DNA of 64,000 nucleotides. Origin: Cheilinus undulatus. Lineage: Eukaryota; Chordata; Actinopteri; Labriformes; Labridae. Of the stretch, positions 7,561 through 36,198 are shown in pieces. Under the pieces are notes generated by a model. The model searched no databases, was not told the DNA's origin, and saw only the letters and a list, made by a program, of their open reading frames with translations. The stretch is taken from positions 9,432,030 to 9,496,029 of the forward strand of contig NC_054877.1 in NCBI RefSeq assembly GCF_018320785.1, written 5' to 3'. How positions within the stretch are numbered: the first letter of the stretch is position 1; the number at the start of each line of letters is the position of its first letter. A program made the translations under genes and the position numbers.

Positions 7561-7599
7561 AAGGAAAGGAGTTCACATTTTGAAAAAAGCACAACAGCA

Positions 7600-8286: not shown

Positions 8287-9175
8287 GGAGGGGTGATATC
8301 AGTTTTTCACTGATTACTGATTTGCAGGTATTTCCAGGTTCATTTTAGGTCATACCAATATATAAGACCTAAAAACCTAAAACCCCAATCCTGAGGACAG
8401 ACTTTGATGTTTAAGGAGTGAGAATTAACAAAGCAAGGCTTCAGCTGATGTAGATTTGTTGGTCCTGCCTAAAACCCCAAATTTTCCCTGCTGTGATGTT
8501 ATTACGGCCTGCAGCTGACAGACTCTCACAAAGGGAGAACAATATGGCGGTTAGCATTCGAGTTAGCATTCAAGTGGTAATTAATTATGATAATGTAATT
8601 CAGTTTTAAATGGATAAAAAGACATTTAATATCAGGTTTACTGGTGTGGATTTAATCATTAAAGTCCCAAAAAGTCCTACGAGGTCCAGGCTCACAGGAT
8701 TCAAAGGCATCAGTAGCATCAATGGTAAGGTACAACGGCTAGCTTCAAGAGGAAAAACAAAAAGGAATGATTTATGGTTCAAAAGTTATTTAACTTTAGA
8801 TAAACTGTGTCACTTCTTGTCTTGTACAACAGCGTCAGTCTGGAAGGCATTTTAACGATCACATTCAGAGAAAGACTGTGTTGCAGACACCATTCTCTGC
8901 TGCTGCAGTGGGTCCTTTGGTTCTTCTTCGCTGCTCTAACAACAGTAGCAACGTGCATGCAGTGTTTTCCGGCCGCAAAGAAGAATTGGTTTCTGGTTTA
9001 TAGCGCTAACATTTAGCATGGCTAAACAAAGCAAAATATAAAGTTAAACCAAACAGTATCGGATCTGTGCATAAACTCATTTACTCCCTAATATCAATAC
9101 CTGCATTTTAAGCAGTATGGGACGTATTTCTGACACTGGTATTGGATTTAGAACAGCCCTAACAATGAATTGAAA
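8287..9175. repeat. Degenerate DNA-transposon-like segment
   Basis: The left part shares ACCAATATATAA and TTGTTGGTCCTGCCTAAA with 2060-2300. The right part ends TAGAACAGCCCTAAC, similar to hAT ends of the GTTAGGGCTGT type. The middle (about 8610-9010) has no recognisable transposase. No target duplication was found. Confidence 0.35.
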
Positions 9176-9654
9176 GTGTTTTGCTTGTTCGTGCGAGTCG
9201 TGTTGGCCCTTTTTATCATTTCATGCAGTTTATATTTAGATGTTATCATGTTAAGTTTCTGCTTATTGCCTTTATCTAGCCAATTTCTATTAAAATCTTA
9301 AAGTAAAATGGTTTCACTACAATAATTTAACAATTTCAGCAAATGATCAAGAATGATCAAGTTAAAAGATGCACAGCACAGAGGAGGATTATACAAGGGA
9401 ACAATTCAAATTCACCTTATGTGAAAGGACAATTTTTAAAATCAAACATTAAAGATTAGCAGTATTCAGAGTGATTTCAGAGCTTTTAAAGCTTTCTCCT
9501 CTTTAAAAATGCATTAACACAGATTTATGCTTCTTGTGCATGGACTGAAAATAGCTTGATACCTGATAGCTCAGACTGAGGTGATGTGGGATGCCTTCAT
9601 CTGGATTGGGTTGGTTGTGTAGACACAGTCTGACAGGCATATATATGAAAGATA

Positions 9655-9770
9655 AAGGATGCACCAATATCACATTTGTCCAGACCAAGTACGAGTACTT
9701 ACATTCGGGTACTCATTGATAAAGAGTACATACAATATATGAGTACTTAATAATGTCATAACTGTTCTTT
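9655..9770. repeat. Fragment of a GAGTACTTACATT-type fish MITE
   Basis: Sequence such as AAGTACGAGTACTTACATT and GGTACTCATTGATAAAGAGT matches the internally repetitive ends of a common fish non-autonomous hAT family (from memory of the family). Only one end is visible. The adjoining 9176-9654 and 9771-10179 hold nothing I recognise. Confidence 0.4.
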
Positions 9771-10179
9771 TTATTATTTTAAAGGTTCATTTAATTTTTA
9801 TAAGATGTTCTTCATGCGTTCATGTGACAGTTTGTTGGCACATAATCTTCATTCTCCTCTACTTTTGTCATCCTCATTTATGTTAAATTATCATCAAACT
9901 GCAGACATGGCTCCAATTTAACTTCATACTCACACAATGAGAGGCTAACAACATGCTTTAAAATGATACAGAGTGCAGAATCTGCAATGTTTTATGAAGA
10001 CAGGTACTTTGGCTTGTCAGCCTCATAGCTCACTGCATGTAAGGATGCCAAAAAAATTAAATATATAAAATTAATTACATAATTCATTGAAATTAATGTT
10101 AAAATATACAAGCATTCGTAAAAATTAAACAGTGATTGCATTTAAAAGGATTAAGTAAAAGACAGGAAATTATTTTTCA

Positions 10180-10460
10180 TACTTGTCTCCCTTTGATTTC
10201 AAATAAACAAAACCACAGTCTGCATGACTACATTTCATTGATTTTACTGAGATCAATTACATGGAAATAAACCATGATACTGTAGTTTGGTTATAGCCCA
10301 AATATTTCAGTTTTATTTAGTATTTTCTATTATTAATAACAAAAACCAAACAAACAAAAAACGAGAAGCCACCATGGTACAAGTGAGTGATGACAATGAA
10401 AAACAAAATCAACTGGGTAAAATAATGGTTACATTTTATAACATTACAGCACAGAGATTA
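10180..10460. repeat. Dispersed repeat shared with 44730-45000
   Basis: Both segments run from CTTTTGATCTCAAACAAACA-like sequence, through ACATTTCATTGATTTT, to GAAGCCACCATGGTACAA, in the same order and strand. The class is unknown. The stretch 10461-10924 that follows holds nothing recognised. Confidence 0.45.
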
Positions 10461-10924
10461 TATTAATATATTTGCCCTCTGCAAAGCCATGATATATGTG
10501 GTTATGATTAAGGCATGGTTAATGTGTGAAATAACACCAGTTAAATGCATAAACACTCTGTACTGACCTCTCTAAAAACACGGTTCTGTCTGTAGTGTTG
10601 GACTCACCTAAAAACTGTTTCTGTTTCACATTAAAGGCCTGAGTCCACAGCTGGTGATTTTAGCTCTGGCAGCACTCACAACCTCAGTTCAAGGACATTT
10701 CCCTTCACCAGCGTTTATTGTTGCTAAGTTATGAATGCTGGCTAAAGCGTTGAAATTGCATCCCTTGGTAGGTGTCCTGAGTCAGTGGAACTAGTTTTTG
10801 ATATATTTTTATATCAGAGAAGGTCCACAATCCCAGTCAGACACTCTGTCTAAACTGTCATGCAGCCACCCACCACTAGTAGCTGCTATAGCTGTTTTTA
10901 ACGACTCCTGCATAGCTGCAGGGA

Positions 10925-11910
10925 CGCTCTTTAACCTCCTGAGACCTGAGCTTTTGGTTGGAATGCATTTTTAGTTTCTCACAATTATTTGAGATAAGTA
11001 TGACCTGACAGGTGTAAAAGCTCAGCATTGTCTTTGAACAGGAATTATTAGTATTTATTTTTTTCACTGAAAATTGAAATTGGAAAAAGCATTACCTTCC
11101 AATAAAAGTTTTCCAAAAATTCCATGCAAATCCCTGAAAATGTTCAAGATAAATCCCTGATTCTAATCAAATTCCCCAACCCCTCTGAAATTTCCATTAA
11201 AGATGTAGAATATTTCTAGAACTTCCAAAAAACATTCCATAAAGTGTTTTCCAAATTTTCAATAAATTTCATAAATTTCCATGAAATGCTAAAAAAACTA
11301 AATTTGAAAACAAATTTCCTGTATTTCCATAAAAATACTTAAACATATTAAAGCATGCTACCCAAAATTTCTAAGTGAATTCCATTACAATGCCTAAAAA
11401 TGTCTAAATAAATTCCCCCAAACCAGTTTTCTAAATATCAATATCAATGCCAAAAAATAAGAAAAATAAAGGGCTTTCAACAAACTTTGTCCAAAATTTG
11501 GTTAAAAATTTTAAAGAAATGATCTGAAATTTCTGTGAAAATTCTTAAAAGTATACAGTTATTCCATTAAAAGTATCAACAAAAAAATTTTCACATATTT
11601 CCCAAATAATTTAGTAAAACTGAAAAAAGCCTCAGCATTCCAATAAAAGTTCTCCAAAGATTCCATATAAATTCCCAACAATTTTCATGCTACATCCCCA
11701 GTTCTCATCAAATCCCTCATAATCCCTGAAATTTCCATTAGAATTTTTGAATATTTCAAAGAGAACCTCTAAAGAAATTTCCAAAGAAATGTTTCCCAAA
11801 TTTGCAGATAAACTCTCCAAATTTCCATGAAAAAACCTAGAACTACCTCAGCAAATCAACCCCAAAATCAAATAAATTTCCCAAAATTACAAATGCATTT
11901 CTCAAATGTT
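10925..11910 (+). repeat. AT-rich dispersed repeat with TTCCAAAAATTCCAT-like motifs
   Basis: The repeat begins CCTCCTGAGACCTGAGCTTT and continues as a degenerate run of AAATTTCC / ATTCC motifs. The same start and run occur in the opposite orientation at about 46540-47260. It has no coding content and lies just beyond the 3' end of GIMAP gene B. A TTTTATTAGG at about 11930 gives a minus-strand AATAAA about 150 bp past the gene B stop, a plausible poly(A) signal. Confidence 0.55.
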
Positions 11911-12080
11911 TATGTGAAACCCTGAGGGACTTTTATTAGGATTACAGTCTCACATGAAGATGAGTGTAACATAAAAAAACTTCATGTATTGCAGATTATT
12001 TTTTTATACAGCAGCTCATCTGGACATGTAGGACAGATCAGTGGTTTTGACATGTGCTCAGGCAGGATGTCAGGCAAACT

Positions 12081-15000
12081 TTAGCGATCATTGCCTTGAT
12101 GATAGAAAGCTCTTATCCACGTCACAACAGCAGCCCCAACAATTTCCATTAACCTCGTCAGTAAACGAGTGCTGTTCTCTGCTCCAGATCTGGCTTCCTT
12201 CTCCTGTTGCTCCCTCAGCTTCCTCATTTCCTCTTCCATGTTCTCATCTGCTGCTTTCCGGGCCTCTGTTTCCCTCTGCAGTGCCTCCTGCATTTGGCGT
12301 ATTTGCTCTCGGTTCTCTTCCATGATTTGTCGACTCTCATCTTCAATCTCCCTCTCCACTCTCTGGAACATCTCAGTGGTGTAATGTTTTCCTCCGTTCC
12401 TCTGTGTGATGTTTTCCACCTTGAAGAGGAACTCTCTGACCTGATGATGGTCCTCTGAGTTATTGTTGAAGACGTGGTACTGGTTGTTGCATCTCGCCAC
12501 CAGCTCCTGTAGCTCTCTGCTGTCTCTCAAGAACACTTCGATAGGTTCCCCTCTGAGCTGGTCACCATGAGTGAAGAGGACCATGCTGAATTTGTCTGCT
12601 TCTCGTCCAAAGATTTGCTGAAGTTTCTGCACTGTCTTCATTTCTTCTTCTGTGAATCTGTCCAGTTTGATGACGATCAGGAAGACATGGGGTCCAGGGG
12701 AAGCATAGGAAAGGCACTGGACGATATTTGCACGTGTTACCCTTTCATCAGTGTTCATGTCATACAACCCCGGAGTGTCGATGACACAAACCTTTTTACC
12801 AATCACTTCAGCAAATGCTTTAGAGCAGCGTAGAGTCACCGCTCTGGGGGTAAACCTGGAAATAAACTCAGTGCTTCCCAGAATGGTGTTTCCTGTGGCG
12901 CTCTTCCCTGCTCCGGTCTTTCCCAACATCACAATACGGATCTCTTCATTATTGTATCGGGTCATTTCTGCTGAGATGGGAGAAAAGAATCAAGCATTTA
13001 GCACTCCGGGCATTCATAAGACGGCACAAATTCACCTAGAGCAAACGCCGCCTGTAAGGGGCGATAAAGAGGAGAGCTCTCTGGAGCCAGCCGAACTGGG
13101 GGCCAGTGGAGGTTTATTATTAGTCGTTTATTTTTGACCTTTAACCACTGTGATCAAAGCTTCAAACAGTTTTGTTGTTGCAGTGCAGTATAGCCTTTTT
13201 CAAACTCTAAATCTCTTTCTCCATCAGAATTACCTCTTTATTTTGGTCATGTTAACAATGTGGGTGGGCGCACTAAACTAAGTATGAAATGAAGTTTATT
13301 TGTATACTACTCTTCACAGACTGCAGTCATAAAGTGCTTTACACAGAAAAAAACTACAGAGAATAAAAGTGATAGTTGTGAAATCACCACATGATCACAA
13401 CAGTCATAACTAGGGCTGAACGATGTTCAAAAATAATCAAATTGTGATTTTTTTTTCCCCCAATATTGCAATTGCGATTTGATATACAATTATTCCTTAA
13501 CTTTCTTTTATTCCTAAACAAGGGTTGAACAATTCTTTAAAAGTGTCTAATTCTGATGATTTTGACTTGTATTGCAAATTGGATATGAATTATTGCATTG
13601 AAGGGTTTTTTTTTTAATAAGAAGTTCAATAAGAAAAAAGAATAAAAATAAAGAGGGTAGGTTTTTTGTAGACTATTCTAAAAAAAATGACACCTGAATG
13701 ATTGCATAATATGTCATGCATAACATCTCTGCTGCTAAAAGAAGTTTAAAACTGGCATTTTGACACAAATTTCAGGTCAAAGAAATATTGCACCTTTTGC
13801 AATTTGAAAATTGCAGCAGGCCATATTGTGATTTAATCTAATTTGTGGTTAATTGCCCAGCCCTAGTCATAACAACAACAATATAGCATGAAAAAAGGGG
13901 GCTAATATCATTAGAAACACATGACACACAATGTAAACAGTTCATATTACATGAAAAGAATGACAGAGTTTGCAGAGCGCAAAGACGGGGGCAGCTCATT
14001 CCACATTTTTGGTGCAATGACTGGAAAGCTCTATCACCCCAAGTCTTTAGGTGAGTGTGTGGGACAGAGATATTCTAGTGTGTTTGATCTAAGGGGGCAG
14101 GATGTCTGGTAGGGGTGGATGACTTCTGACAAATAATCTGGAGCGTGACCATCCAGGGATCTGTAAGTGAATGTGAGGATCTTGAACTTGATTCTGAATG
14201 TAATGAGGAGCCAGTAAAGGGATCTGAATACAGGAATGATGTGGGAGAATACTCTGTTAATACTCTGACTGCAGCGTTTTGGACTGATTGGAGGCAGAAA
14301 AGTGTGGATGTGTTGAGAGGTGAAGAGTGAATTACAATAATCAATCTGTGATGAGATGAAGTCGTGTATGAGCATTTTAAGTTTAGTGGGGGAAACTAGT
14401 GATCTAAGTTTATTTATATTTCTAAGATGGGAAAAAACATGATTTTGTTTGCTGTTTGATGTGATTATCAAATGTAAAAGATCAAAAATAACACAGAGGT
14501 TTCAAAGACTCGGGCAAACAGCATTTGAGAGGCAACCCAAATTCTGCAAGATTAAGGGGACAAACTTTTCCTGTGCAACAAGTAAAACCTGAGTTTTATC
14601 ATCATTGAGCTGTAAACTAAACCATCAGGAAAGAAATGTCAGACTTCAGAGCTAAACCACGACGTCCACGAACATCAGGATGCCTGAATATTAAGTAAAA
14701 GACAATAACTGAGACATGCTCATAGGAATAGAATAGAAAATTATGAGAGACAAAGAAAAGGGTTAATAGTGGCAAAAATGGGTTAAAAGAAGCATAAAAA
14801 TGCCAAAAAGGGCAAAAGTTGGGAAAAATTGGCAAAAAGAAGCAAAGAGAAATGGCAAAAAAAAAAACAAGAAGAGGCAAAAATGTCAGAAAAGGGGTTA
14901 AGTGGCAAAATTGTGCAACAAGTGGCAAAAATAGATTTTAAAAAGCAAAAGGAAATTGCAAAACGGCCAAAAGGGATGAAAGGGGGTTAGATGTTGCAAA

Positions 15001-15796
15001 ATAGGCAAAAAAAAGTGCAAAAATTGGTTAGAAGTCGCAAAAGCAGTGGCAACCAGAAAAGCACTCAGAGAGCGCAGAACTCCACAATTAGCCCTATCTC
15101 CCAATCGTAAAGAATCCTTTAAAAAAAATCCTTGATCCAGACGGTGATCCAGATCACTCCCAAAATCTAATCAGTTCTTCCTTATGCCATTTCTGACATT
15201 TCCTGAAAATTTCATCAAAATCCGTCCATAACATTTTGAGCTATGTTGCTAACAAACTAACAAACTAATGAATAAACCCACCCAATCACATAACCTCCTT
15301 GGCGAAGGTAAAAATGCTAGTAAATGGGTGAAAACAACAAAGAGAAGAAGGGAAAAATGGCAAAAAGTGGCAAAAATAGCAATAATGTGTTAAAGTCTCA
15401 AGCTTTTACCCCGGGGATATTAGTCAGGTTGAACTACATGGCTGTTCTTTTACTGAATGAATTAAAAATGACAGCCTCTTCAAAAGAAACTTAAATCTTA
15501 GCTTGTATCAGATCTGATAGTCTTAAAGTCTAATACAGTCAGACCTACGATGGCGTTCTATTTTATATTAACCACATGACACAAAACATGCACATTACCG
15601 CCTGAGAGGGAAACTGTCTTAAATCTTCCCACATGCAGCTGTGGTTAAACCAGTGTGAACCAGCGTCTAAAAAGCGTTAATGCAACATCAGTCTTAACAT
15701 CCTAAAAACTAATGAACAGTATCTAAAGACTTCAACATTCTGATCGATCTGGGAAAGAAGTTCTTTTCTACTTGACTTACCGTTACTGCCGGCCAT
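12081..15796 (-). CDS. GIMAP/AIG1-family GTPase, gene B
   Basis: Exons 15781-15796 and 12081-12967 are joined by a phase-1 intron (GTAAG donor, CTCAGCAG acceptor) and give 300 residues starting MAGSNEMTRYNNEEIR. G domain: G1 GKTGAGKS (21-28), G3 DTPG, AIG1 box SPGPHVFLIVIKLDRFT, G4 THGD, and a G5-region YHVFNNN. After the G domain comes a long Glu/Arg/Gln-rich helix (about 210-275) expected to form a coiled coil. The weakly hydrophobic end, LMEIVGAAVVTWIRAF, is a less certain membrane segment than in C to E. GIMAP GTPases act at lymphocyte internal membranes; the exact orthologue cannot be assigned here. The intron holds a LINE, a hAT element and a repeat array. Confidence 0.92.
13283..14640 (-). 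repeat. L2-like LINE 3' half in gene B intron 1
   Basis: Minus-strand translation gives LNDDKTQVLL, FSHLRNINKLRS, SSQIDYCNSLF and YRSLDGHAPDYLSEVI, all landmarks of an L2-clade ORF2 C-terminus. The 3' UTR ends near 13283 with TTTATTTGTATACTAC. The copy is split by a hAT insertion at 13411-13865. Its 5' part (from about 14430) also survives in the gene C intron at 22977-23190, so the LINE is older than that duplication. Confidence 0.8.
13411..13865. mobile_element. Non-autonomous hAT element, 455 bp
   Basis: A perfect 8-bp target duplication GTCATAAC flanks the element (13403-13410 and 13866-13873). The ends read TAGGGCTGAACGAT and CCCAGCCCTA. It has no coding capacity. It sits inside the 3' UTR of the LINE above. 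Confidence 0.88.
14740..15400. repeat. TTTTGCCACTTTTAACC array (block 2, inverted)
   Basis: The plus strand shows the reverse complement, with recurring GGCAAAAA and GGGTTAAAAG. It lies in intron 1 of gene B, is paralogous to 23290-23785 in gene C, and is interrupted by an insertion at 15053-15309. Confidence 0.7.
15053..15309 (-). mobile_element. Short dispersed element inserted after the B/C duplication
   Basis: The sequence is the reverse complement of the family at 44184-44440, which starts ACCTCCGCCACAGAGG and ends AGTGCTTTTCTAGT. In gene C the paralogous site at about 23672 reads straight through (GCAGTGGCAAAAATGC) with no insertion. The boundaries are therefore defined by the empty site. 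It is a non-coding element of unknown class, common in fish. Confidence 0.7.
15781..15796 (-). CDS. Coding exon 1 of GIMAP gene B
   Basis: Sixteen nucleotides encode MAGSN plus one base, followed by a GTAAGT donor. The join to 12967 gives MAGSN-E-MTRYNN. It is nearly identical to exon 1 of gene C at 24186-24201. Confidence 0.87.
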
Positions 15797-15803
15797 ACTT
15801 GGT

Positions 15804-15866
15804 TCAGGAGAAGAGCTTGTCTGATTCTGAGATGGAGAAGTAGAATAAAGTCATCCTCAACGCCAT
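15804..15866 (-). other. Upstream ORF in the gene B leader
   Basis: ATG at 15866 opens a 20-codon frame (MALRMTLFYFSISESDKLFS) that stops 7 nt before the main ATG. In the near-identical gene C leader the two in-frame ATGs are GTG and ACG, so the uORF is absent. A TATA-like TTTATTTAC (minus strand, 15894-15902) would place the start site very near 15866, so it is uncertain whether the uORF is transcribed. Confidence 0.35.
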
Positions 15867-15934
15867 ATTCCCCTTCTTCAGGGAGTCTGTGCAGTAAATA
15901 AAGCGTAATTCCCTTTTTTTCTATTTTATCTTCA

Positions 15935-16009
15935 GAGACAGAATGCAATCAGCACATCCTGTTTACCCCGCCCATCCGCAATCACAAGAAATTATCCACT
16001 TTCCCAGAA
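15935..16009 (-). promoter_or_regulatory. Conserved promoter block of GIMAP gene B
   Basis: Shares ATCAGCACATCCTGTT with genes A and C. On the minus strand it shows, in order towards the gene, a STAT-type TTCTGGGAA (16001-16009), GGGCGGGG, a forkhead-like GTAAACA and an ETS-like AGGATGTG (15953-15960). The last starts 157 bp from the ATG, as in A and C. Factor identities are inferred. Confidence 0.5.
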
Positions 16010-16175
16010 ATGTTGAGAATTAAAGTCAATCTAAACTTTGAAATGAGCAAAAAACAAATAGAGTCATCTTCATCAACAGTGGTGCTAACATGCACATTGA
16101 AGCAACATGCTGCCTTAGTATGTGATTTCTGATCCTATGGTCAGTCAAACACACGAACGCCTGAGATTTCTCTGA

Positions 16176-16905
16176 TAATCTCTTTATTTATTCATTCAAC
16201 CAGATAAAGACCTATTAAAATCAAGATCTCTTTTATAAGAATGACCTGGCCAAGAGGTCAGCAGCACACATCATAATAAATAATACATATTCAAGAGACA
16301 AATAATAAACATTATGTTAAAACAAACAATAAATAAAAATTAGAGCTAGTTCACATTGTAAAGTCCAGTAGTGGGAATCATTATAAGAATTTAAAAACCC
16401 AAGCACTGTTGCATGGTCTCACATTGTCTGTCATTAAAGATAGAGCGGAAGTTTTCCAGTGACATGAGTTCATATGGGTTCAAATCAGTCTGGAGAGAAT
16501 TCCATGCAGAGGTGAAACAAAACTGAACGCTCTTTTCTGCTGTTCAGTCATGACACGAGGAACAAGCAGATGAATGATATCACTAGAGTGCAAAGCGCTA
16601 TGGCTTTCAGTTCTTTGAAGAAGAGTACATAAATAAGAAGAAACTGAGCCAAGAAGAGCTTTGTGAATTAGAGTCAGCCAGTGAGTGTACCTGTGAGCCC
16701 TCAGAGAAGGCCAGCCAGGTTTGGCATTTAGCAGCTGTATTTGTGCTGTGTTGCTTTCTAAAACCAGATTGGAAAGGTGATAAAATGTTATTTGTGACAA
16801 GACAATCCATCAGTTGATCAATGACTAATTGTTCAAACACTTTAGCAAGAATACACAGTTTGGAAATGGGTCTTTAATTATTTACATCTGAAGGTTCGCC
16901 CCCTT
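16176..16905 (-). repeat. Internally deleted LINE fragment
   Basis: At 16770-16840 the minus strand reads FEQLVIDQLMDCLV and LSPFQSGFRKQHSTNTA, an early reverse transcriptase motif. At 16600-16720 it already reads HWLTLIHKALLGSVSSYL, from the C-terminus. The RT core between them is missing. The 3' end at 16176 lies at the right breakpoint of the B/C duplication. Confidence 0.75.
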
Positions 16906-16959
16906 TTAACAGAGGAAGAACAAAACAAGTACCAATCAAACATTTGCTGAGAGGTGAGA

Positions 16960-17640
16960 GCTGCAAAGGAGTGTTGTCACAATACCAAAATTTTGAGTTC
17001 GATACCAAGTTCAATATCATGATACTCAATACTAAAACCATACTTGAAACTTGAAACGAATCTAGTAAGGTACTCGATACCTGATAAATCAGAAACAGGA
17101 TGTTTACAAGGGATGGCCACATTTTAGAACTGATATTTTGTTAACGTTAACAAACAATATACTTGCCATCTGTTTCATGAAGCCAATTTGTGCTTTTTCA
17201 CCACTTTAGAATTATGAATTGTGTGTCCTATTTTGTGTGTTTTTAAAATGTCTTTGAATGTTAGTCAAGCACATTTAACCCAGTGATATTTGTTTTAAAA
17301 CATGTTGACTATAAGCAGAGGGGCTGCACAGCGGCACAGGGGATAGCGTTGTTGCCTCATAACAAGAAAGTCGCTGGTTTGCTTCCCGGTCAGGGCCTTT
17401 CTTTATAGTTAAGAAAAAATGACTAAATTAGCTCATTAAAACACACCCTACACCAAACCCATATGCACACAAATTTGAATCTTTTGCTCCACTTTCTACC
17501 AGATCACCAGGATTAACCTGCTTTGTTGTGTCCCAATGGATGCAGGTAACACTCGGTATCTATTCAATAAATCCATAACAGTTAATTTATTAAAATGCAG
17601 CATAGATAGTGTTGTCCTTTTGCATCAGCTGTATCGGACA
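16960..17640. repeat. Degenerate MITE and SINE-like pieces
   Basis: At 16965-17100, GTTGTCACAATACCAAAATT and repeated GATACC motifs match a fish hAT-type MITE; AGTGTTGTCC near 17610 may be its other end. Inside it, 17330-17400 (GGCTGCACAGCGGCACAGG, with a B-box-like GGTTTGCTTCCC) resembles a dispersed tRNA-like fish repeat. Boundaries are soft. Confidence 0.4.
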
Positions 17641-17664
17641 TGATTTTTAAACATAAATTTAGAT

Positions 17665-18002
17665 CACTGGTTCCCAACCTGGGTTCTGGGACCCCCTGGG
17701 GGGCGCCAGAGATCTCAGAGGGGGCGCAAGGCTGTGCCTGCTCTGAGGTTGTCAAGATTAGATTTGTATATATAACTAAGATTGTGGCGAAACTTTACTT
17801 AAATAGTTCATACAAATGTCTGTTGGTATAATAAACATATATAAACCTATTTTCTTTGCGTTTTGTCTGTGAAACAATTAAAATTGATGTTGATTTTTAA
17901 CAGCAATCAGTCACTTTTTAATCCGTGTGGGTCTCTGGGGTGTTTTGGCTTTTCTTAGGTATAAGTAGGAAGGGCTCTAGGAAAAAAGGTGGGGAACTAC
18001 TG
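17665..18002. mobile_element. hAT-Charlie-type MITE, 338 bp
   Basis: Ends CACTGGTTCCCAACCT and, on the other strand, CAGTAGTTCCCCACCT form the terminal inverted repeats. A perfect 8-bp duplication ATTTAGAT lies at 17657-17664 and 18003-18010. No coding capacity. Confidence 0.9.
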
Positions 18003-18064
18003 ATTTAGATAATATTGTTAGCTTCATGTAGGCTATCATTACACTTGTGTAGTTTGAAGTTTTA

Positions 18065-18250
18065 ACTGTTTACCAGTGTTTCCCCTACCATTTCATTACA
18101 GCCCCCCCCCTGTACATCGAGTCAGTTTTTTTTAAATTGTATTTTCTATATAGCGCCAGATCACAACAGAATTCATTTAAGGATACCTTTCCTATAGATC
18201 AGGCCTATACCTGCTCCCTTTGTTAAACAAGCTACATATCCTTATGTCAT
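18065..18250. repeat. Fragments of transposon ends
   Basis: CAGTGTTTCCCCTACCATT resembles a common fish hAT terminus. The following TATATAGCGCCAGATCACA resembles a LINE 3' end. Both are partial and lack partners. Confidence 0.35.
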
Positions 18251-19486
18251 TTATCTTGTTTATATGAATTTATTTAATTTCTGAGTCCTGGTTTTCTGCT
18301 CGTTCCCTCTGACTCCATGACCAGAGCTTAGCAACCCCACACACTTACTGACCAGAGAGCCTGCATCCTCCTCCCCGTGTCAGCGCTGAGGTCTAATGTT
18401 TGCTAGGATGCCTTGACTGGCTAGGAGTGGATGATGTCATCAGGCAGGGCAAGAGGAGCTTGATTCTTCGTGAGTTAGAAGCCATGACAGCAGCATGTGT
18501 GCTGTACATCTCTCTTCATCACCTTTGATTGAATAAAAACCACACACACATTTAACTTATTTACCTTCTTTACCGAACACATGTAACTGCCACGTGTTAT
18601 TATACCTGGATGTTACTAAAGCCCCTGGACTGTTCATCTGTACAGGAACACTTCCATATCGTCACCTACTCAAAAGAACCTTTTAAGAAGTCCATACTTC
18701 ACCACATGGACAGTGATCTGAAAAAATAAAAGCTGCAGTATCGCTCAGTGAAACTATCCTGATGTGAAAGCCTGAATTAACTGTCTACAGGTTCTAAAAA
18801 AGTAATTTGTGCAGATTTTTTGCACACAAGAAAAACATGTCTTGTGTGCAAGGACCTTTAGATGGTCACAATGAAGAGTTCATCTGTCCTCATTCTGCAG
18901 CGACTTCCTGTCTCACTTATCGACATGCTGTAGTGAGATGTCACCAGCAGGTTGTAAGAGCCTGCACAAGTGACTCTACCTGAACAACCCTCTGACTCCC
19001 TGTGCAGAATGTGATATAGCATTCCTAATGTCTCTAAGCAATGAGTTAGACGCCATGCAGATCTCTGAGATTTACCTCAAGGGCTACAACAAAGCCTGGA
19101 GAAAACCGCTCTGCTGCAAGCTCAACTTTCAGTCCAACAGAGAAGAGAAGACACTTTGGGACAGTTGACCCACTTTTATTTTCAAGCTCAGCAAGAAGTT
19201 CACAAAAAAATGAAAGGAAAAATGAGTAGATGAATTGAAAGGTTTACATGAGAAAGGAAACAAGAATAGATTCCAGAGCAAAAACAGGAACATCAACTTC
19301 AAATGATTATATTTCTGAACTTCAAACAGTCAAAGAAAAGAAAACTTAACTGTTATATAAGCAATAAAATGCAATATTTTTACTGTTAAAGCCAACCTCG
19401 GTTAAATATTCAATAAGCTTCATTTCTACATTTTTGGAAATAATCTATTAACACTAGAATTTTATTCCAACAGCTCAATGAATATG
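18251..19486. other. Intergenic, nothing recognised
   Basis: No gene, exon or delimited repeat could be supported here. Short frames show no motif. Confidence 0.35.
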
Positions 19487-20560
19487 TTTTTGGAGAAATA
19501 ACATGGTTAATAAACCCACACTTTCTGCCCACTTTGCCCCTCACTGTGACAGACACTGCCCTGTGGAGTTTGCTTATAACTTTACTCAAACTGGTTGTTT
19601 GATGTCATCTTCTGCCTTTTTTCAGTCTGTTTACCCAGGATACCTTTGGGTTTGTAGGTTGTGTAGCCTTAAGTCTGGTTTATGCTTTTGTGTCAAGTCT
19701 AGGCTGTGGTGGCCAACGCCGATGTGAGCACTACTGGTGAATCCATGTCCCTGGTAAAACTCCGCCCAAGCACGACTCCACAGTGGGATTTTAATGCCCG
19801 GTCCTGTCGCCACATTTCCTGCTTGTTCATATAAACCTTGGCTGCTGAAACTGAGTGTTTAATGATGGAGTATGGGCTGATAATTATCTAGCAGTAGTTG
19901 ATTACACTGCAGTTGTGACAAAGCAAAAAGTGAGGAGATGGAGGACATGGTCGCTGAGATATTTTGGATGTTTGCATGTAGATTACATAAGTTGCATAAC
20001 CGTCTGCAGCCATTTATCTCTCTGCAGAGACTACACTCAGAGACTGGAAGTCACCAGCGCTCCACAGTGGACCAGTCACTTGCAGTCTGTGTCATTTTCA
20101 TGTATAGTTAGATTTTTGAGTAGGTGCATGTCAGCCTGTGTGGTAGACCTCTGCAACGGGTTCAGGGGCTACAGTGAAGGCCAGCAGTTCTCCTTTTTTT
20201 TTTTGAGCCCCACTCCTTGTATGGAACAAAGTATAATGGTATTGGTTGTAAGGTTTAAATCAAATTTTACCAGTTTTGGAGGAGACAGGGCCTCACATTC
20301 TGCTGAAATGTCTGACACCCCCCAAAGACGGTCCCAAATCAAAGGTTGGGAACCAAGGGTGTAGGTGGCTAGCATAGCATAGCCTCAACACAGAAGCATA
20401 AATCACTGTTAGGAATTGTTGTGGGTAGAAATAACAGAGCAAAAGTTAAGTCAGAGTTTATCAACATGGGAAAAAACTGAAAATAATTTCCCCTTGAATT
20501 AGAAACTAATCATGACTATTGATCATGATCACAGTGGTGATTAAAATAATCTTTAAACTG
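19487..20560. repeat. Dispersed repeat carrying a PIF/Harbinger-like core (copy 1)
   Basis: Homologous over its whole length to about 47339-48400. The core, about 19672-20408, has ends AGTCTGGTTTATGC and GCATAAATCACT and is flanked by TTA on both sides (TWA targets are typical of PIF/Harbinger). A smaller hAT-like MITE lies inside at about 20183-20357 (ends CAGTTCTCC and GGTTGGGAACCAAG). No transposase is visible. Confidence 0.6.
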
Positions 20561-20773
20561 CACTTTCAGTCCCTATCAGCATTAAGGGCCTCATTCATCT
20601 GCCATTCTTAAAGAGAAATTTCAGAACATTTTTATCTGTTCTCAGCCAAGAACAAAATCTAAGAACACCTGTGAGCACTTTAATGCACATTTGAGTGCTG
20701 AACTTACAGCAAAATGACTGATTTTGCACTTAACAGCTCTTAAATCAAGGACGTATTTTTGGCACTTTGCCCA

Positions 20774-23700
20774 TCAGAGCAACAACAGAGTGAAGAAAAG
20801 CACTGTACAGACCCCTGTTATGATCCCAAGTACTCTAGAGCTGTTCTCTGCTTCCTTCCTTGCCCTCCTCTCCTGCTCTTCTTTCAGTGTTTTTATTTTC
20901 ACTTCTTTTTCTTTCTGCAAAGCTTCTCTTTGCTGTTTCTCTTTCTCCAGATCACCTTGTGCTTCTCTTATTTGTTGCTGATATTTTTTCTCTATTTCCT
21001 TCACCAGTTTCTCCCTTTCTTTGTGCATTTTCAGCTCTTTCTCTCTCAGGATTCTTTGTTTCTCCTCTTCGATCGCCCTCTCTGCTTTCTGGAAAGTCTC
21101 AGTGGTGTAGTGGTTTCCTCCGTTCCTCTCTGTTATGTTTTTGATCTTGCTGAGCAGCTCTCTGACCTGAGACTGATCCTCCAGGTTGTTGTCAAAGACG
21201 TGGTACTGGCTGTTACACCTTTCCACAAGCTCCTGCAGCTCCTCGCTGTCCTCCAAGAACTTCTCTATAGACCCTCCTCTGAGCAGGTCACCATGGGTGA
21301 AGAGGACCATGCTGAATTTGTCTGCTTCTGGTCCAAAGATTTTCTTAAGCCTCTCCACCGTCTTTTTTTCCTCCTCAGTGTATCTGTCTAGTTTGATAAC
21401 AATCAAGAAGACATGGGGTCCAGGAGCAGCAAAAGAGATGCACTGGGCGATGTTTTTACTGGTTTTCTCTTCATCAGTACGGGTGTCAAACAGACCTGGA
21501 GTGTCGATGACAGCAACCTTCTGTCCATCCACCTCACCACTGGCCTTGGAGCAGAATATGGTCACTGATATAGGGGAGAACCTTGATGTAAACTCTCTTC
21601 TTCCCAGAATGGTGTTTCCTGTGCTGCTCTTCCCAGCTCCGGTCTTCCCCACCATCACGATCCGGATCTCCTTATTGTTGTATCTCATCAGCTCTGATCA
21701 GATTGCAGAAAAAAACATGTATACAATTAAGTTTCTTATTTTTTAAATAATATTCATAACACTTTTCGACACATATTGAAACACAACAGAAAGTAGAAAA
21801 ATCTTACAAAGAAACAAGACACTAATATGAATAAGAAAATGATAGAGTGAGAGATAAAACATAATAATAATAAATTAAAATTAGAGAGTAAAACCTTTGT
21901 TATATATAATCAAACACAAGCAAACTACAAAATAACACATGAAACAGGAACACAGAGAGAGAAGGAACAGAATGGCGCTAGAAAGTTAAGGGGCAGATTT
22001 ACTAAAGAATAGCGCAGCTTTTTGTGCAGTTTTTTTTTAATAGAAATGGCAAAAACATTAGCGGCTAATCCACAGAGCACATGCAAAGAGGAAATCCACA
22101 CCAACTGCACATAAAATGCAGGCAATCTGCTCAAGCGAGCAAACAGCGTCCTGTCCCATTTGCATGTACGTAAATGAGGAGTAGAAGGAGGAGTATTTTA
22201 AATTCTACACAAAATCACTCCTCTGACATGCAAATCAGCCTCATTACAATAGAACCTAATTCACAAAGGGAGGCACTAACTGCAACAGGCAGTGAAAGTG
22301 GTGAGGACAACACCAAGGATCCGTTTGAATGGTTCAATTTGCTTAGGAAGGTTCTTAACCAAGTGAAACGACCCATGAGTATTTTAATGTCGGCCATGAT
22401 AAAGGCTGTTCATATTCTCTAAGTGATAAGGAAAGGAGCTTCATAACTTCCTTTATTCTCTCCTTTAGCCTAGGAAACACTGGACCATCCTTTAGCAAAG
22501 GAGAGATGGAGACGACCCACAATTCTTTGAGCCAACTTTGATTAGAGTGACACACCTGTTGACCACTCATTAAAACACTCAGTATGACAGCGCCGATTCA
22601 AACAATAATTTTCACTGTCAAACAGATGAATCATGTGATAAATGGGAGGAAATAAGGTGGATATTACAGACATGACAACTATATCGTCCCACATAGCCAT
22701 AGCGGCTAAATTGCACAAACTTTGTATTTATCATTATTGTTGTAATACAGAGATGGTGTGTGTGTGTGTGTGTGTGTGGGTGTGTGGGGGTGGGTGTGTG
22801 GGTGTGTGTGTGTGGGTGTGAAGAGAGTCTGCTTAGGGCCTCACTTTGGCCAGGGGCAGTCCTGAGTGCTATTCTCTGCAACATTCAAAGTGGATGTGTG
22901 AACTTGTTTTGGCTTCCAAACTATGAAGACAGTACAGACTTAGACATAACGTGTGCAAGAAATGCCACACCAGAGTGAAAAGACATGATTTTGTTTGATG
23001 TGATTATCAAATGTAAAAGAATGATCAAAAATAACACCAAGGTTTCAAAGACTCGGGCAAACAGCATTTGAGAGGCAACACAAATTCTGCAAGATTAAAG
23101 AGAAAAACTTTTCCTGTGCAACAAGTAAAACCTGAGTTTTATCGTCTTTGAGCTGTAAACTAAACCATTAGAGAAGTAATGCCAGACTTCAGAGCTAAAC
23201 CACGATGTCCACAAACATCAGGATGCCTGAATATCAAGTAAAAGACAACTACTGAGACATATTCGTAGGAATAGAGTAGAAAATTATGAGAGACAAAGAA
23301 ATGGGTTAATAGTGGCAAAAATGGGTTAAAAGGAGCATAAATATGCCAAAAATTGGTGAAAAGAAGGAGAAAAAAATGATTAAGAAAAAAAAAGGAGAGG
23401 AAAAGGGAAACAAAGGCCAAAAAGTGGCAACAGTGGGTGAGCATTTGTAAAAATAAAAATGATAATAAAAATAACAGTCACAAAAGAAGGAGGCAAAAAT
23501 CTCAGGAAGAGGGGTTAAGTTACAAATTAGTTCAATAAGTGGCAAAAATAGTTATAAAAAAGCAAAAACAAAAAAAATGCTAAATGGCCAAAAGGGGGAT
23601 GAACGGGGTTAAAAGTTGCAAAATGGGCAAAAGAAATGGTACAAATTGGTTAGAAGTTGCAATAGCAGTGGCAAAAATGCTAGTGAATGGGTTATAACAA

Positions 23701-24201
23701 CAAAAAGAAATGTCAAAAATGTTTCAAATTAGATGAAGAGGGGAAAAATGCCCAAAAAGTGGCCAAAATAGCAATAATGTGTACCCCGGGGATATTAGTC
23801 AGGTTTGGCTACATGGCTGTTCTTTGACATAATGAATAAAAAATGACAGCCTCTTCAAAAGAAACTTCAATCTTAACTTGTATCAGATCTGATAGTCTTA
23901 AAGTCTAATACAGTCAGACCTACAATGGCGTTCCATTTCATATTAATCACATGACACAAAACATGCACATTACCGCCTGGTAGGAAAAACTGTCTTAAAT
24001 CTCCCCACATGCAGCTGTCTCCACATCTGTACAGTTTAATTATAAGAAGGTAAACCAATGTGAACCAGTGTCTAAAAAACATCAATGCAACATCAGTCTT
24101 AAGATCCTTAAAACAACTCAACAGTGTTCAAAGACTTCAACAATCTGATCGATCTGGGAAAGAAGTTCTTTTCTACTTGACCTACCGTTATTGCCGGCCA
24201 T
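20774..24201 (-). CDS. GIMAP/AIG1-family GTPase, gene C (membrane-anchored)
   Basis: Exons 24186-24201 and 20774-21693 are joined by a phase-1 intron (GTAGG donor, TGATCAG acceptor) and give 311 residues starting MAGNNELMRYNNKEIR. G1 GKTGAGKS is at 21-28; G3 DTPG, the AIG1 box APGPHVFLIVIKLDRYT, G4 THGD and YHVFDNN follow. A long Lys/Glu/Arg coiled coil covers about 210-290, then a C-terminal membrane anchor ends the protein (VLGIITGVCTVLFFTLLLL). C-terminal anchors are known in several GIMAPs. The large exon is most like that of gene E, but exon 1 and the promoter are near copies of gene B. A minus-strand ATTAAA at 20679-20684, about 90 bp past the stop, is a possible poly(A) signal. Confidence 0.93.
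21820..21910 (-). repeat. LINE 3'-UTR remnant shared with gene E intron
   Basis: The run ATGATAGAGT...GAGAGTAAAACCTTTGTTA matches 53840-53915, at the same place relative to exon 2 of gene E. In gene E it continues into recognisable LINE sequence at 53930-54010. The shared position supports common descent of the C and E large-exon regions. Confidence 0.55.
21980..22200. repeat. Possible MITE end in gene C intron 1
   Basis: GGCAGATTTACTAAAGAATAGCG resembles the terminus of a fish MITE; its opposite end was not found. Intronic, non-coding. Confidence 0.3.
22420..22720. repeat. Dispersed repeat shared with 55772-56100
   Basis: Both copies contain AGGAAAGGAGCTT, CCTTTAGCCTAGGAAACACT, GGACCATCCTTTA and a GACACACCTGTTGAC-like end, in the same order. 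One lies in intron 1 of gene C and the other in intron 1 of gene E. Its class is unknown. It may be a mobile element or part of the C/E paralogy. Confidence 0.5.
22755..22820. repeat. (TG)n microsatellite
   Basis: About 65 bp of TG dinucleotides with GGG interruptions, in intron 1 of gene C. Confidence 0.95.
23290..23785. repeat. TTTTGCCACTTTTAACC array (block 3, inverted)
   Basis: Paralogue of block 2, in intron 1 of gene C. It contains GGCAAAAATGGGTTAAAAGG-type units and lacks the insertion present in block 2. Confidence 0.7.
24186..24201 (-). CDS. Coding exon 1 of GIMAP gene C
   Basis: Sixteen nucleotides encode MAGNN plus one base and are followed by a GTAGG donor. Joined to 21693 it gives MAGNN-E-LMRYNN. 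Confidence 0.87.
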
Positions 24202-24341
24202 ACTTGGTTCAGGAGAAGAGCTTGTCTGATTCTGAGATGGAGAAGTAGAATAAAGTCGTCCTCAACGCCACATTCCCCTTCTTCAGGGAGTCTGTGCAGT
24301 AAATAAAGCGTAATTCCCTTTTTTTCTATTTTGTCTTCAGA

Positions 24342-24414
24342 GACAGAATGCAATCAGCACATCCTGTTTACCCCGCCCATCCGCAATCACAAGAAATTAT
24401 CCACTTTCCCAGAA
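24342..24414 (-). promoter_or_regulatory. Conserved promoter block of GIMAP gene C
   Basis: Near-identical to the gene B block. The STAT-type TTCTGGGAA lies at 24406-24414, with GGGCGGGG, GTAAACA and AGGATGTG (24358-24365) closer to the gene. The last starts 157 bp from the ATG. Because this is part of a recent duplication, agreement with B alone is weak evidence; agreement with A is stronger. Confidence 0.5.
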
Positions 24415-24614
24415 ATGTTGAAAATTAAAGTCGATCTAAACGATGAAATGAGTAAAAAACAAATAGAGTCATCTTCATCAATGGTAGTGCCAACGTGCAC
24501 ATTGATGCAACATTTCTGGTCCTATGGTTAGTCAAACACACGAACACCTGAGATTTCTCAGATAATCTCAGAAATATTCAGAGTGATGGGGCTGCCTTGA
24601 TCAGTCCTTGGATT

Positions 24615-25050
24615 ATATATATATATATGCCTACACGTTTTAGTCAACAGTTTATCCCATCCCAATATTTCACTCACCTACCCAGTTTATACACTTGTGA
24701 GTACAACTCTAATGAATTGGTCTGTGGTTGAGAAAAAGCACAATCAGTCATGCAGAACAAAGGTATATTGTGTGTCTGAGAAGTTGTTTGAAGCATCTGA
24801 GTACATCTCATGACAATTCTAGCAAATTTTACAATGTGCATTTTTAAAGTTACTTAGCGTATATATATATTTATATATATCTGCAAAGGGTTCAGGGACT
24901 ATGGTGGAGGCCAGTGCTTCTCCACCTTTTTTCCCTTTTTTCTTGTATAAAAGTATCACGGTATTAATTATAATGTTCATATCAAATTTTTAAAAATTTT
25001 GGAGAAGACTGAGCCTCCAATCCTGCTGAAATGTCACAGTATATAAACTT
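24615..25050. repeat. AT microsatellites and a partial repeat
   Basis: Short (TA)n tracts lie at about 24616-24630 and 24860-24880. From about 24883, GCAAAGGGTTCAGGGACTA and the sequence after it match 20150-20300, a truncated copy of the repeat beside gene C. Confidence 0.55.
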
Positions 25051-26092
25051 GCAAAGCATCTTAAATACTCTTTAGATATGTACAAGCTTTTGTTGGTTTA
25101 TTTCTAGTTTTGACAGGGGTACAGGATGGTTCCCAAACTGTGTCCAGTCTGAGACCCTCATAAAACATTAGCCTACACTGGAGACATTTTATTCTTCAAA
25201 ATAATCTTAGACACTGACGACAAATACCAAAAAATAAACACACCACTTCTTCAGTTATTTTCTTATTTATTTAAGAATGAACTATCTTCATTTTACTAAA
25301 TGTCTTTTTATGAATACTCTTACAGTTTCTATGTTTTCTTTTAGAAACTTAATTTTAATAGGGGGTGTGCAGCTACTTTTAAGGGATAAAAGACTCGTAG
25401 TAGCTGCTCTCTTCTGTTGGCAAGAGTGGTGTGTGTTAGATTTTTTGAGCAATTTTCACAAAACAGAAACATGGTTTTTAAAACTCAGCAATAAGTTACA
25501 TCTAAAAAGCCATTAAAGTGTCACAAAAATGTTAAGAGGTGATTTTTAATGCTGTCCCATTCAAGATCATAGTACTTTTTCATAAGTTTTTATTTAGTTT
25601 TACTTTTGGTTTAAAATTTAAATTTAATTTGATTAGTTTTTATTGCTGGTTGTTAGTTTATTTTAGTTTTGATTTATTTGGTTTTTATTTAATTTTTTTT
25701 TTTTTTTTTTTTTAGTTCAGTTTTACTTTGTTCTAGTGTTGGTTTAAATTTTTTTCAGCAGTACAGGAGGGACACTTGCCAGGGATGAGACCCAAAAGGG
25801 TCAAAAAAGTAGAGCTCAAACAATGACATTCAACCATTTTACTCTTTACAGGCTTTGGCGTTCATATCAGTCAGTCAGCTGCTGTCAAAGACTGAAACTG
25901 ACGACATTTTGTTACTTATTTTATTTAATTTTAGTTTTGTAGGCACACAATACAGCTTTACTTGTTGGGGGGTGGAAAGTTTATAATAAGTAGTTCTTGT
26001 GTTTCAAATACATGGGCCAGACATGGCCATCGAACAGGCCGGGTGGATCTGGCACCGTGTAGTTCCTAGAGCACCTCCTCTTTTAGCATTCT
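25051..26092. other. Intergenic, T-rich, nothing recognised
   Basis: A poly-T tract lies at about 25688-25713, within a degenerate TTTAGTTTT-rich stretch (25580-25760). No gene or delimited repeat was identified. Confidence 0.4.
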
Positions 26093-26338
26093 TCATATGG
26101 GATGGAAATAAAGTAGCGTTGGTTCGTAGATGTAAAGCAGAAAGCCAGGTGTGCCAGTGTCCAGGTTGTTGTTAATGCCATGGGATTTCTCAAACTTCAT
26201 CGGGTTATCCAACCATGCGTAGACCGTACTCATCATGGCATCCATGTCCAGAGCATAGTTCATCATAAGTTTTTGTTGTTGAGTTAATCTTACATATCTA
26301 TAATAACCTTGGTCCCATTCTTCCTCATCTTCCACCAT
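26093..26338 (-). other. Unidentified open frame, 81 codons
   Basis: The frame opens with ATG, is acidic at the start ([16 protein letters not shown]) and has a balanced composition unlike the low-complexity frames around it. The reading just upstream has an in-frame stop, and no splice partner was found. I do not recognise the sequence. It could be a decayed exon or part of an old insertion. Confidence 0.25.
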
Positions 26339-26399
26339 AGTTTTTGGGGATCCTCACCAACACCTCCTGGTGATCGGGGGTATCAGGACCCCTCTTTGT

Positions 26400-27169
26400 T
26401 TATTTAGACCATAATAAAACACATACAGGTAGAATTATTGAGGTTTAACTCACTTCACCAAAACACGTTTGTTATATTTCTGTCTATAAAATATTTATTA
26501 AACATCATATAAAACTATCCTATACAAATATTAACATAAAAGTGAGAATACATATAAAGAATGGTTGCTTAAACAAATCCTGTGTTTATTGAAGGAAAGT
26601 GAAAATGTCACACCTGAATACTGAGTTATTAATGGAGGAACAAGAGTAAAACTGACATTCAGTTTTGTTTTTAATGTCTCGATTGTTTTGTATATTCTTT
26701 GGAAAATTAGGGGAAAAGTCTTTAATGTCCTGGGATTTTCTGGGACTGTTCATATATTGATCAGACGTTTCTATTGTAATTTAAGATTTATATCTCAGAA
26801 TAGAATTAAACCTGAAGCTTGTACAGTAAATTTACAGTAAAGTTTTCTCTGAATCTCAAAGACTATTCAAGATTGTATTAGAAAGTTGTGTTAAAGGCTC
26901 AAGTACTCAATATTTCAAAGAATCCAACTCAACCACTAGAGGGCGACACACGGCCATTTTCATAATGATGAATTACTGTGCAGCGAGGCCATTTAGAGGG
27001 TCCTTCATGAATACTTTGATCTACACTGATCAGAACACCTAAAAAAAACACCTACTTTAGAATTATTCTACTTACTCATCCTGGTTGGTGTGTTTGAATG
27101 CACATGCTACACATTAATATGGAGAATTACAGGACCTGAAAACTAGTTTTAGCAGTTAAGGGTCATTTT
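26400..27169. other. Intergenic, nothing recognised
   Basis: Ordinary AT-rich sequence without a supported gene. ACCACTAGAGGGCG near 26933 resembles the end of a mobile element, but no partner was found. Confidence 0.35.
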
Positions 27170-29720
27170 GAAATAGGCCTGTAGTTTTGGGGCAGAGAGG
27201 GGTCCAGATTTGTTTTTTCTTTTTTTTTTTTCTGAGAGGTGGTTGAATGGCAGCATGTAGAAAATATGATGGGACATGATCAGATTCTAATGAGTTATTG
27301 ATAATTAAAGAATGTATGGGTCAATAGAATCTGTTGCAGATTTGAGCAGATGGGTGGGTAAAATGTCAAAGAACTAGAGGAAATTTTCATTCTTCTACCC
27401 AGATTGTTTAGTCCTTGTAGGGAGAATGGAGATCACTTTTCCAGGACTGCTTGATGAGGTGAGCAGGAAAAAGAGGAAGAAAAAGATGGGAGTGATTTTG
27501 CTTGGATATTGTTACGAGATCTGGGATCAAACACTGACCATTGAAAGGTTACAAGGACTGTTTTAATCCTGTCTGACTTCAGTCTGCAGCTCCATACTCA
27601 CTTGTATGTGCTGTAGCGTTAGGGCTTGTGGTTTCCTGCACCTAGCAGGCTGCGAGAACTCTGAGCTTCAGCATTACTCTACATCTCTAAGCCCCCCTTG
27701 TGTGTGTGTGTGTGTAAGAATGAGCCTGCTATATTTTAGAAAAGAACTGAGAGAGATGTGTGGTCAGAAGAAAAAAACCCTCCTCTATGACTTTATGTCC
27801 ACAATAATCGCACAAGAAAACAGAAAAATTTAAGGCCACTAAAGCTTCTAGGGTTACTCCAGAAGTTTTGTTGACAAAATCCAAGCAAGATCTAAAATTG
27901 GGGTTTAAAAAACTTTTTATTTTCCCAAAGCTTCAGCAAAAATATGTACCAAAAATGCTCAAGAAATTCAAAAACAAAACCTGAGCTGATTAATTCCAAA
28001 TTTCATTGAGGAGTACATTCATAAACAGCAAAAAATATTGATGATATAAAAATTTGAATGATTACATGAATGAAAAATGATTTAAAAATCAATTTAAAAG
28101 CAAAAACAAACATTGGATCAACATGAGAATATAGTACCAAAAATTGAAAATGGTCAAAAACCTTCATAAGTTGAAACCACAAAGATAGCTTTTGGATTTA
28201 TTTAGTTCTCCATCTTGGACCATAAACTGTTGATTCTAACTGGCTGGTGCTACCCTCAGTGAGCAAGCTCCTTCATGGGTCTCTCAGACTTTTTCTAGCC
28301 CTTGTAGTACTCATCGGCTTCTATCTGATCCCTCTTTTGTAGAGGTCCTTCCTTTCAGCTAACAAGTAGTTACAACCCTGAACTGGTTTGTTCACTGATA
28401 GGAGTTATCACCGATCACCTACAGAAGGACCAGGACTGAACAACAGGAACATGCCAATCAGAACCTGTGGCTGGACTCTGCCAGAGAGCCCCGACAGAAC
28501 AATTCAGGCCTCTTCATAAGGTAAGCTAGATGCCCGCCTGTACTGTGATTTCCAAGAAAAGTAATCTTAGAAACCAGACATTAGGGGGAAACCCTATGTA
28601 GAATCTAAGTTTAGAGATTAGAAGGTCACTATAGTTTACTCAGAGTTCATCCAGAGGGTCTCTTGTGGTTTCACCTCCACTTGTCTCCATTGTGCTGTAT
28701 CATGTTTAAATAAAGGTGCCTGCATCATCAGGAAGCTCTTCACATCTCTGCCAGTCACAATGTTTTTTGTTTTTCTTAGAGTGGATAACCTTTATAAAAT
28801 CTTCCACTGCCATAGAACAAGGGCAAAAAAACTAAATCCACATACAAAAGTTAACCCGCCTGTTGCTAGGGCAGATTAGGTCATGTCATACTCTGTTATA
28901 TCTGCTTAGGATAAATGTCCATCAAGCCTCCATAAAAGAGCATTAAACCATGGTGCTTTTCTTTCAGCTTCAGGAAAGTAATTGAATAAACACCAGGAGG
29001 TCGATTCTCTCAACAATATCATCGATCTTGCTAACAAAAAGGAAAGGAATCTGTTGCACTTATCATCAGAAGAAATTGAGGTATTGGGTGATAGAGAAGA
29101 GACAACATGATTAGTCGTTTCAAACAGGAATCTTGGATTCTGTTTGTTCTGTGTTACAAGATTAGCAAAATAGAAAGCTCTAACATTCTTAACCATACTA
29201 TTATATTCAGTTAAGAGCTCTTTTGGGTGCCGATGGTGGACTCGAAGACAGGTGGATTTCCACAACAGCTCCGCTTTGCAGCATGTTTGCTTGAAGGAGC
29301 GGAGGACGGCTTTTCCAAACAAGCCAGTCTGGATTTCAATGGAGCAATTATATCCAAAACAGAAAGACAGTGCTCATTAAAGGACTGTACTTATATGTAA
29401 ACATCACCATATAAAGACAAATGGTAGGAATGAAAGGAAGCAGAAGTTTTATGCAGTGAGATGGTTAAGGATGCGAGATTTAATTTTATGATGACAGGGT
29501 GGAAAATCAAAGTTAAAGGAGGGATTAAACATAATAGAATAGAATAGAATAGAATAGAATAGCATTATGATCAGAAATATAAAGCTTCTCAGAATAAACA
29601 ACTTTAAGCCAAATGTAAAAACAAGGTCTAGCATGTTCCCTCTAACAGGAGTAGGATCTGTTACATGCTGAGTAAGATTAAATGATTCAGTTATGTTTTA
29701 AAAATCCTGTGGCACAGATA
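27170..29720 (-). repeat. Decayed L2-like LINE with endonuclease and RT pieces
   Basis: Read on the minus strand from high to low coordinate: an endonuclease C-terminal piece (GNMLDLVFTFGLKLF, about 29600-29650), the endonuclease-RT linker (LLTEYNSMVKNVRAFYFANL, about 29130-29230), and an early RT piece (SLIINNSLESDHVPSYFLHA, about 27240-27310, then QIWTPLCPKTTGLF). A (TAGAA)n tract interrupts it at 29533-29562. About 1.3 kb between the linker and RT pieces does not read as LINE and may be an insertion. Many frames are broken. It is the longest LINE relic in the window. Confidence 0.7.
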
Positions 29721-29728
29721 GCCTAGAC

Positions 29729-30385: not shown

Positions 30386-30450
30386 GCTTAGTGGTTTAAG
30401 GTGCGCCCCATATACGCTGTCCACCTGTGGCATGTTGAATTATGTAAAAA

Positions 30451-30575: not shown

Positions 30576-30585
30576 CGAATGTTGT

Positions 30586-33290: not shown

Positions 33291-33299
33291 CACCAGAAT

Positions 33300-35573: not shown

Positions 35574-35581
35574 TTTTAAAG

Positions 35582-36190: not shown

Positions 36191-36198
36191 GTTTAAAG

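Follow-up and report, generated by a model that had tools for sequence, protein, structure and literature searches.

The window analyzed here is a stretch of 64,000 bases of Cheilinus undulatus (RefSeq assembly GCF_018320785.1, contig NC_054877.1, positions 9,432,030 to 9,496,029 of the forward strand). It is free of N and contains five GTPase genes of the immunity type (GIMAP), called A to E, each with an AIG1 (PF04548) GTPase domain, identified with Pfam, in a large exon on the minus strand. All comparisons were limited to these five genes. As it stands in this sequence, gene C is mosaic, related to gene B toward the 5' end and to gene E toward the 3' end. We consider it probable that this paralogue of the tandem cluster arose when a B-type front end was copied before an E-related large exon. 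The features concerned are the following.

24186-24201, minus strand: gene C coding exon 1, MAGNN plus one base, phase 1
20774-21693, minus strand: gene C large exon with the AIG1 G domain, splice acceptor at 21693
22977-24569, minus strand: B-type 5' block of C, from the upstream flank through promoter, leader and exon 1 into the 5' part of the intron, aligning to 14431-16182
22696-22976, minus strand: 281 bp between the E-type and B-type stretches, rich in CA/CCCACA repeat, containing or abutting the join
22427-22695, minus strand: second E-type stretch in the C intron, 74.6% identical to 55771-56057
20679-21909, minus strand: E-type stretch of C (short 3' flank, large exon and intron with the tail of a long interspersed nuclear element, LINE), 83.6% identical to 52655-53918
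19469-20404, minus strand: further 3' stretch common to C and E, 67.9% identical to 47322-48178
15781-15796, minus strand: gene B coding exon 1, MAGSN plus one base, phase 1
12081-12970, minus strand: gene B large exon, AIG1 domain
14431-16182, minus strand: block of gene B corresponding to 22977-24569 of C
14034-14615, minus strand: LINE remnant in the B intron, passing through the block boundary at 14431
57164-57179, minus strand: gene E coding exon 1, MASNI plus one base, phase 1; nhmmer E-value 6.7e-18 over 57410-57156
52721-53670, minus strand: gene E large exon, AIG1 domain

The B-type block of C aligns with its counterpart in B over 1310 matches, 141 mismatches and 443 gap columns, an ungapped identity of 90.3%. 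An earlier annotation made from the letters alone (hereafter the sequence-only reading) had called the two front ends almost identical; the shared block is there, and the wording suits only the promoter and exon 1, identical at 236 of 241 positions (98%). Kimura two-parameter (K2P) distances between B and C are 0.104 in the upstream flank, 0.021 in the promoter and exon 1, 0.095 in the intron, 0.246 in the polypyrimidine stretch (219/276 identical) and 0.075 in the LINE-bearing intron. The promoter and exon 1 have changed significantly more slowly than three of the other pieces (5/241 against 75/902, Fisher 3e-4, in a count that omits the polypyrimidine piece with its 57/274). Such a difference in rate is what favors an old duplication whose two front ends were kept alike by selection alone. 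That explanation is scarcely credible, as the likeness spans intron and LINE remnant as well, where constraint is not expected, and the distance between C and E around exon 1 has reached a K2P of 0.545. An insertion of about 259 bp in the B intron (15053-15311), absent from C, accounts for about 259 of the 443 gap columns.

The large exons of B and C are clearly unlike, with 470/600 identical nucleotides in the G domain and 125/237 in the C-terminal part. C and E share the large-exon start ELMRYNN, which reads KPFRYNN in D and AEMTRYNN in B, the LINE 3' tail beside the large exon and a short 3' flank with the motif named earlier. On all these points the sequence-only reading was correct. Its claim that E has the G domain closest to that of C failed: the G domain of D is narrowly closer to C (548/600) than that of E (543/600), and D and E form the closest pair. 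In the C-terminal part, C is identical to E at 228/294 positions and to D at 176/294. On these sequence comparisons, C is tied to E through the adjoining intron, the 3' flank, the N-terminal start of the large exon and the C-terminal part, and not through the G domain. Within the further 3' stretch at 19469-20404, positions 20150-20312 have a second match at 24880-25035, so that this stretch may include a dispersed repeat.

Distances between the same genes reverse from one part to the other. On common sites of the 5' region, B and C differ at 10/280 and C and E at 101/253, against 130/600 and 57/600, respectively, in the G domain (Fisher 2e-26). There the synonymous distance (dS) is 0.68 (0.49-1.01) between B and C and 0.16 (0.09-0.24) between C and E. 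By these reversed distances the two parts of C have different closest relatives, as defines a mosaic. When the branch lengths of the two parts are unlinked instead of proportional, the fit improves by 94 log units at a cost of 4 parameters (p about 1e-39). Separate trees of the two halves, which had been proposed as a check, differ in their best unrooted quartet: the 5' region favors BC|AE with a bootstrap of 99, and CE|AB comes out best both with the G domain (84) and with the large exon (93). The identical topology named beforehand as a refutation of the mosaic did not appear. Two points weigh against separate histories. Lineage-specific rates could also drive the branch-length test, and the approximately unbiased test leaves a common quartet possible at the 5% level: with the 5' data, CE|AB has a value of 0.061 and AC|BE of 0.070, and BC|AE has 0.176 with the G domain and 0.078 with the large exon. 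The topology points to a mosaic without proof, and the distances carry the case.

The junction itself lies among remnants of an element that we take to be a LINE. Submitted to Pfam, the LINE frame 6961-7572 scored just under the cut-off for RVT_1 (27.7 against 29.6 bits). With 6958-7572 as a tblastn query, B was matched at 14615-14328 (E-value 1.9e-11, 36%, one stop inside) and C only at 23143-22997 (E-value 3.2e-4), the block shared by B and C ending at 22977. In B, the stop-to-stop frame 14034-14501 crosses the boundary at 14431. A second remnant adjoins the large exons of C and E: the match between them at the LINE tail ends at 21909 in C, and in E the tail runs on into LINE-like coding sequence matching 6745-6662 (50% over 28 residues, E-value 4.8e-4). 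By the first remnant C falls with B, by the second with E. Because the distances reverse, the remnants associate C with two different relatives and the LINE frame is broken off in C, we read C as a B-type 5' half joined to a 3' half of the E lineage, in agreement with the sequence-only reading.

Since the LINE extends across the junction in B and halts there in C, B appears to keep the older, unbroken arrangement, although the absence of any Pfam match on the LINE frame of B speaks against this. The opposite direction, in which the arrangement of C is older and B received its front end, is favored by the symmetry of the block, whose distances give no direction. It would require C to have lost the remaining LINE later, and we regard it as distinctly improbable. 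Within the LINE of the B intron, 13411-13865 is occupied by an element whose ends are inverted (TAGGGCTG), with a direct repeat of 8 bases, GTTATGAC; it looks like an insertion of the type that we take to be hAT.

Between the two parts of C lies the repeat-rich segment 22696-22976, which gave nothing significant against three stretches of the window (best E-value 0.71). A simple CA-rich repeat at 22736-22835 might have led to a false join of B-type and E-type parts at or near it during assembly, and only one assembled sequence was seen. Such an artefact is very improbable: the window holds no N, the repeat is shorter than 100 bp, the 141 mismatches and 443 gap columns show that the block in C is not a second copy of that in B, and joining the exons gives an open product in phase.

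The order of events was approached through the noncoding parts, because the G-domain dS between C and E overlaps the B-C values of the 5' part. Noncoding K2P distances between C and E are 0.292, 0.241, 0.279 (66 sites) and 0.212, above three of the four noncoding values for B and C. This range of 0.21-0.29 suggests that the swap is younger than the split of C and E; the likelier sequence is that C and E split first and that the B-type front came later. Two findings count against this order, namely the dS overlap just mentioned and the polypyrimidine distance between B and C (0.246), as large as the C-E values.

The same distances bear on another route to the final structure, which starts from a whole-gene duplication giving B and C; conversion, with E or an unseen E-like gene as the source, would later have overwritten the 3' part of C. 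B and C are neighbors in the window, the outcome would be the same mosaic, and conversion may act in the cluster, as the G domains of D and E look homogenised (dS of 0.086, against 1.565 in the C-terminal part). With E as donor, C and E should be the younger pair, whereas their noncoding distances of 0.21-0.29 exceed the 0.075-0.104 found between B and C in three of four pieces. Moreover, no B-type 3' flank follows the E-type part of C, as 9000-12300 and 17000-21050 matched only within the large exons. We hold this route to be unlikely.

For the copying of a B-type front end, the mechanism can be narrowed to some extent. Between C and E, the exon-1 regions show 62% identity over 278 columns. 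Beyond the block, on the intron side, only its other end was matched between B and C, and a comparison of 16100-20700 of B with 24500-31900 of C returned only the block end and two weak repeat-like matches. Classical gene conversion would have donor and recipient alike on both sides of the tract; no such likeness is seen here, although later decay or insertions could mask it. Because of the 62% identity and because no likeness of B and C continues past the block, a copied segment or a template switch is more likely than classical conversion. Both segment copying and gene conversion had been put forward in the sequence-only reading; the first stands and the second fits worse. One consequence of copying finds no counterpart in the data and weighs against it: no E-type front end was found near C, so that its loss has to be assumed. 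Three pieces of the E front end were sought, namely exon 1 in 1-52000 and, in 21698-31900, the exon-1 side of the intron and the upstream region; the only significant matches fell in the exon-1 regions of A, B and C.

In the scenario that we consider probable, C and E would have separated first. A B-like segment (14431-16182), ending inside the LINE of the phase-1 intron of B, would then have been copied into the C locus and placed before the C large exon, the former front end of C being lost or moved. Since all five genes have a first exon that ends in phase 1, the new exon 1 would splice in frame and would yield a complete protein of 311 residues. Simulated C frames stayed without a stop in 9.2% of 3000 runs at 61 random substitutions, half the number of differences between C and E (123 over 894 sites), and in 19.6% at 41, in a simulation of substitutions only, free of indels. 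As so few frames stayed open, a long silent phase of C as a promoterless E fragment seems unlikely.

The exon-1 residues are MAGNN in C, MAGSN in B and MASNI in E, so that the swap affects about five residues. Because it alters so few, its main effect would be on regulation, with a B-type promoter driving C. If this is true, predictions of how C is regulated should start from B, and not from D and E, the genes nearest to C in protein sequence. Motifs that we presume to be an interferon-stimulated response element (ISRE) and a gamma-activated site (GAS) were located by pattern. An ISRE-like site lies 205 bases before the ATG of E, with none within 600 bp in the other four promoters; a GAS-like site lies 213 bases before the ATG in both B and C, and a separate one at 472 in E. 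The ISRE core occurs 13 times in the 64 kb, so that about 0.6 would be expected in five 600-bp promoters, against one seen (E). The GAS pattern occurs 32 times, with about 1.5 expected and three seen (B and C in the same place, E elsewhere). These promoter motifs amount to weak evidence, the counts being not far above chance. A strict ISRE-like sequence is present at 57375 in the E promoter, and the strict pattern recurs at 26595 and 55113.

Gene D has a mosaic look as well. Its G domain is 93.5% identical to that of E (561/600, dS 0.086), and its C-terminal part only 59% (178/303, dS 1.565 with a wide interval). The intron of D beside the large exon cannot be aligned (K2P 0.77-0.92 over about 115 sites), and D exon 1 had no better match among the other parts searched than an E-value of 0.49. 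D (31945-36501) may be a second mosaic or the product of conversion confined to the G domain. A wider and rather doubtful idea is that the phase-1 intron serves as a hinge for repeated recombination of front ends with GTPase exons, through which duplicates would gain new expression programmes at once. C would have acquired a B-type front, perhaps moving from an E-type promoter (ISRE-like) to a B-type promoter (GAS-like), and D would couple a G domain of the C/D/E type with a front end and a C-terminal part that are both unrelated.

The GIMAP/AIG1 (IAN) family forms tandem clusters and has expanded in a number of teleosts: zebrafish is reported to have more than 100 copies (PMC7053062), and teleost copy numbers are reported to reach nearly 190 (PMC9245644). 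The genes described here resemble the family in their AIG1 domain, their tandem cluster and the single large exon per domain, the last also being the rule for most snail AIG genes (PMC7053062). That paper treats unequal recombination and gene conversion in tandem arrays only in general terms, and the passages of both papers that were consulted contain no swap of promoter and exon 1. Among titles and the beginnings of abstracts, nothing described an exchange of front ends between GIMAP genes, in a search with most of the subscription literature outside it. The chimeras of stickleback spiggin are likewise mosaics within a tandem fish family in which introns are kept (PMC4989455), but they are reported to be backed by transcripts and genomic polymerase chain reaction, whereas C is known from one assembled sequence. 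A LINE marks the breakpoint in C, where its role as a cause would be putative. Chimeric genes of Drosophila formed by partial tandem duplication also pair a 5' region with another coding part; these are reportedly young and studied at the level of populations (PMC4503668), and in C the join would be old and would link paralogues within a single family. Such reshuffling of genes is already known; in C it left clear marks and may have altered how the gene is switched on. If our interpretation is true, trees of GIMAP coding exons tell only half of the history of a gene. Should swaps like this one be frequent in the GIMAP clusters of fish, they would contribute to explaining differing expression among the many copies.

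The remaining genes of the cluster are as follows.

31945-32873, minus strand: gene D large exon, AIG1 domain
36477-36501, minus strand: proposed coding exon 1 of gene D, MGAVLEKF, chosen by eye, with an open join and unlike the other exons 1
3257 to about 3919, minus strand: gene A large exon, AIG1 domain
4546-4561, minus strand: gene A coding exon 1, phase 1; nhmmer match 4817-4509, the sequence itself being in the training set

The exon-1 ATG is placed at 4561 in A, 15796 in B, 24201 in C, 36501 in D (by eye) and 57179 in E, and the predicted joined products are open over 301 (B), 311 (C), 317 (D) and 321 (E) residues. For C, the junction of exon 24186-24201 with the acceptor at 21693 had been anticipated and is in frame as a sequence prediction. 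C passes the curated PF04548 threshold with 216.8 bits against a cut-off of 27. Among the nine best matches of its large exon to solved structures by sequence, eight are GIMAP7, 4, 2, 5 and 1, and the ninth is the GTPase Der. To the eye, the product continues after the G domain, where a coiled-coil part would be expected of a GIMAP protein, with a Lys/Glu-rich, heptad-like stretch and ends in a hydrophobic C-terminus, a membrane anchor being a trait of some GIMAP members only. When the large exon was scanned against viral contigs, none of 17 pattern matches was confirmed. Gene A (3257-4561) stops shortly past the G domain and carries DTPVLFN where B to E have DTPG(L)(F/Y)D; it may be degenerate. 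Elsewhere in the window, 62851-63705 is a repeat array with overlapping long open frames and units such as GTVLSPSAGW.

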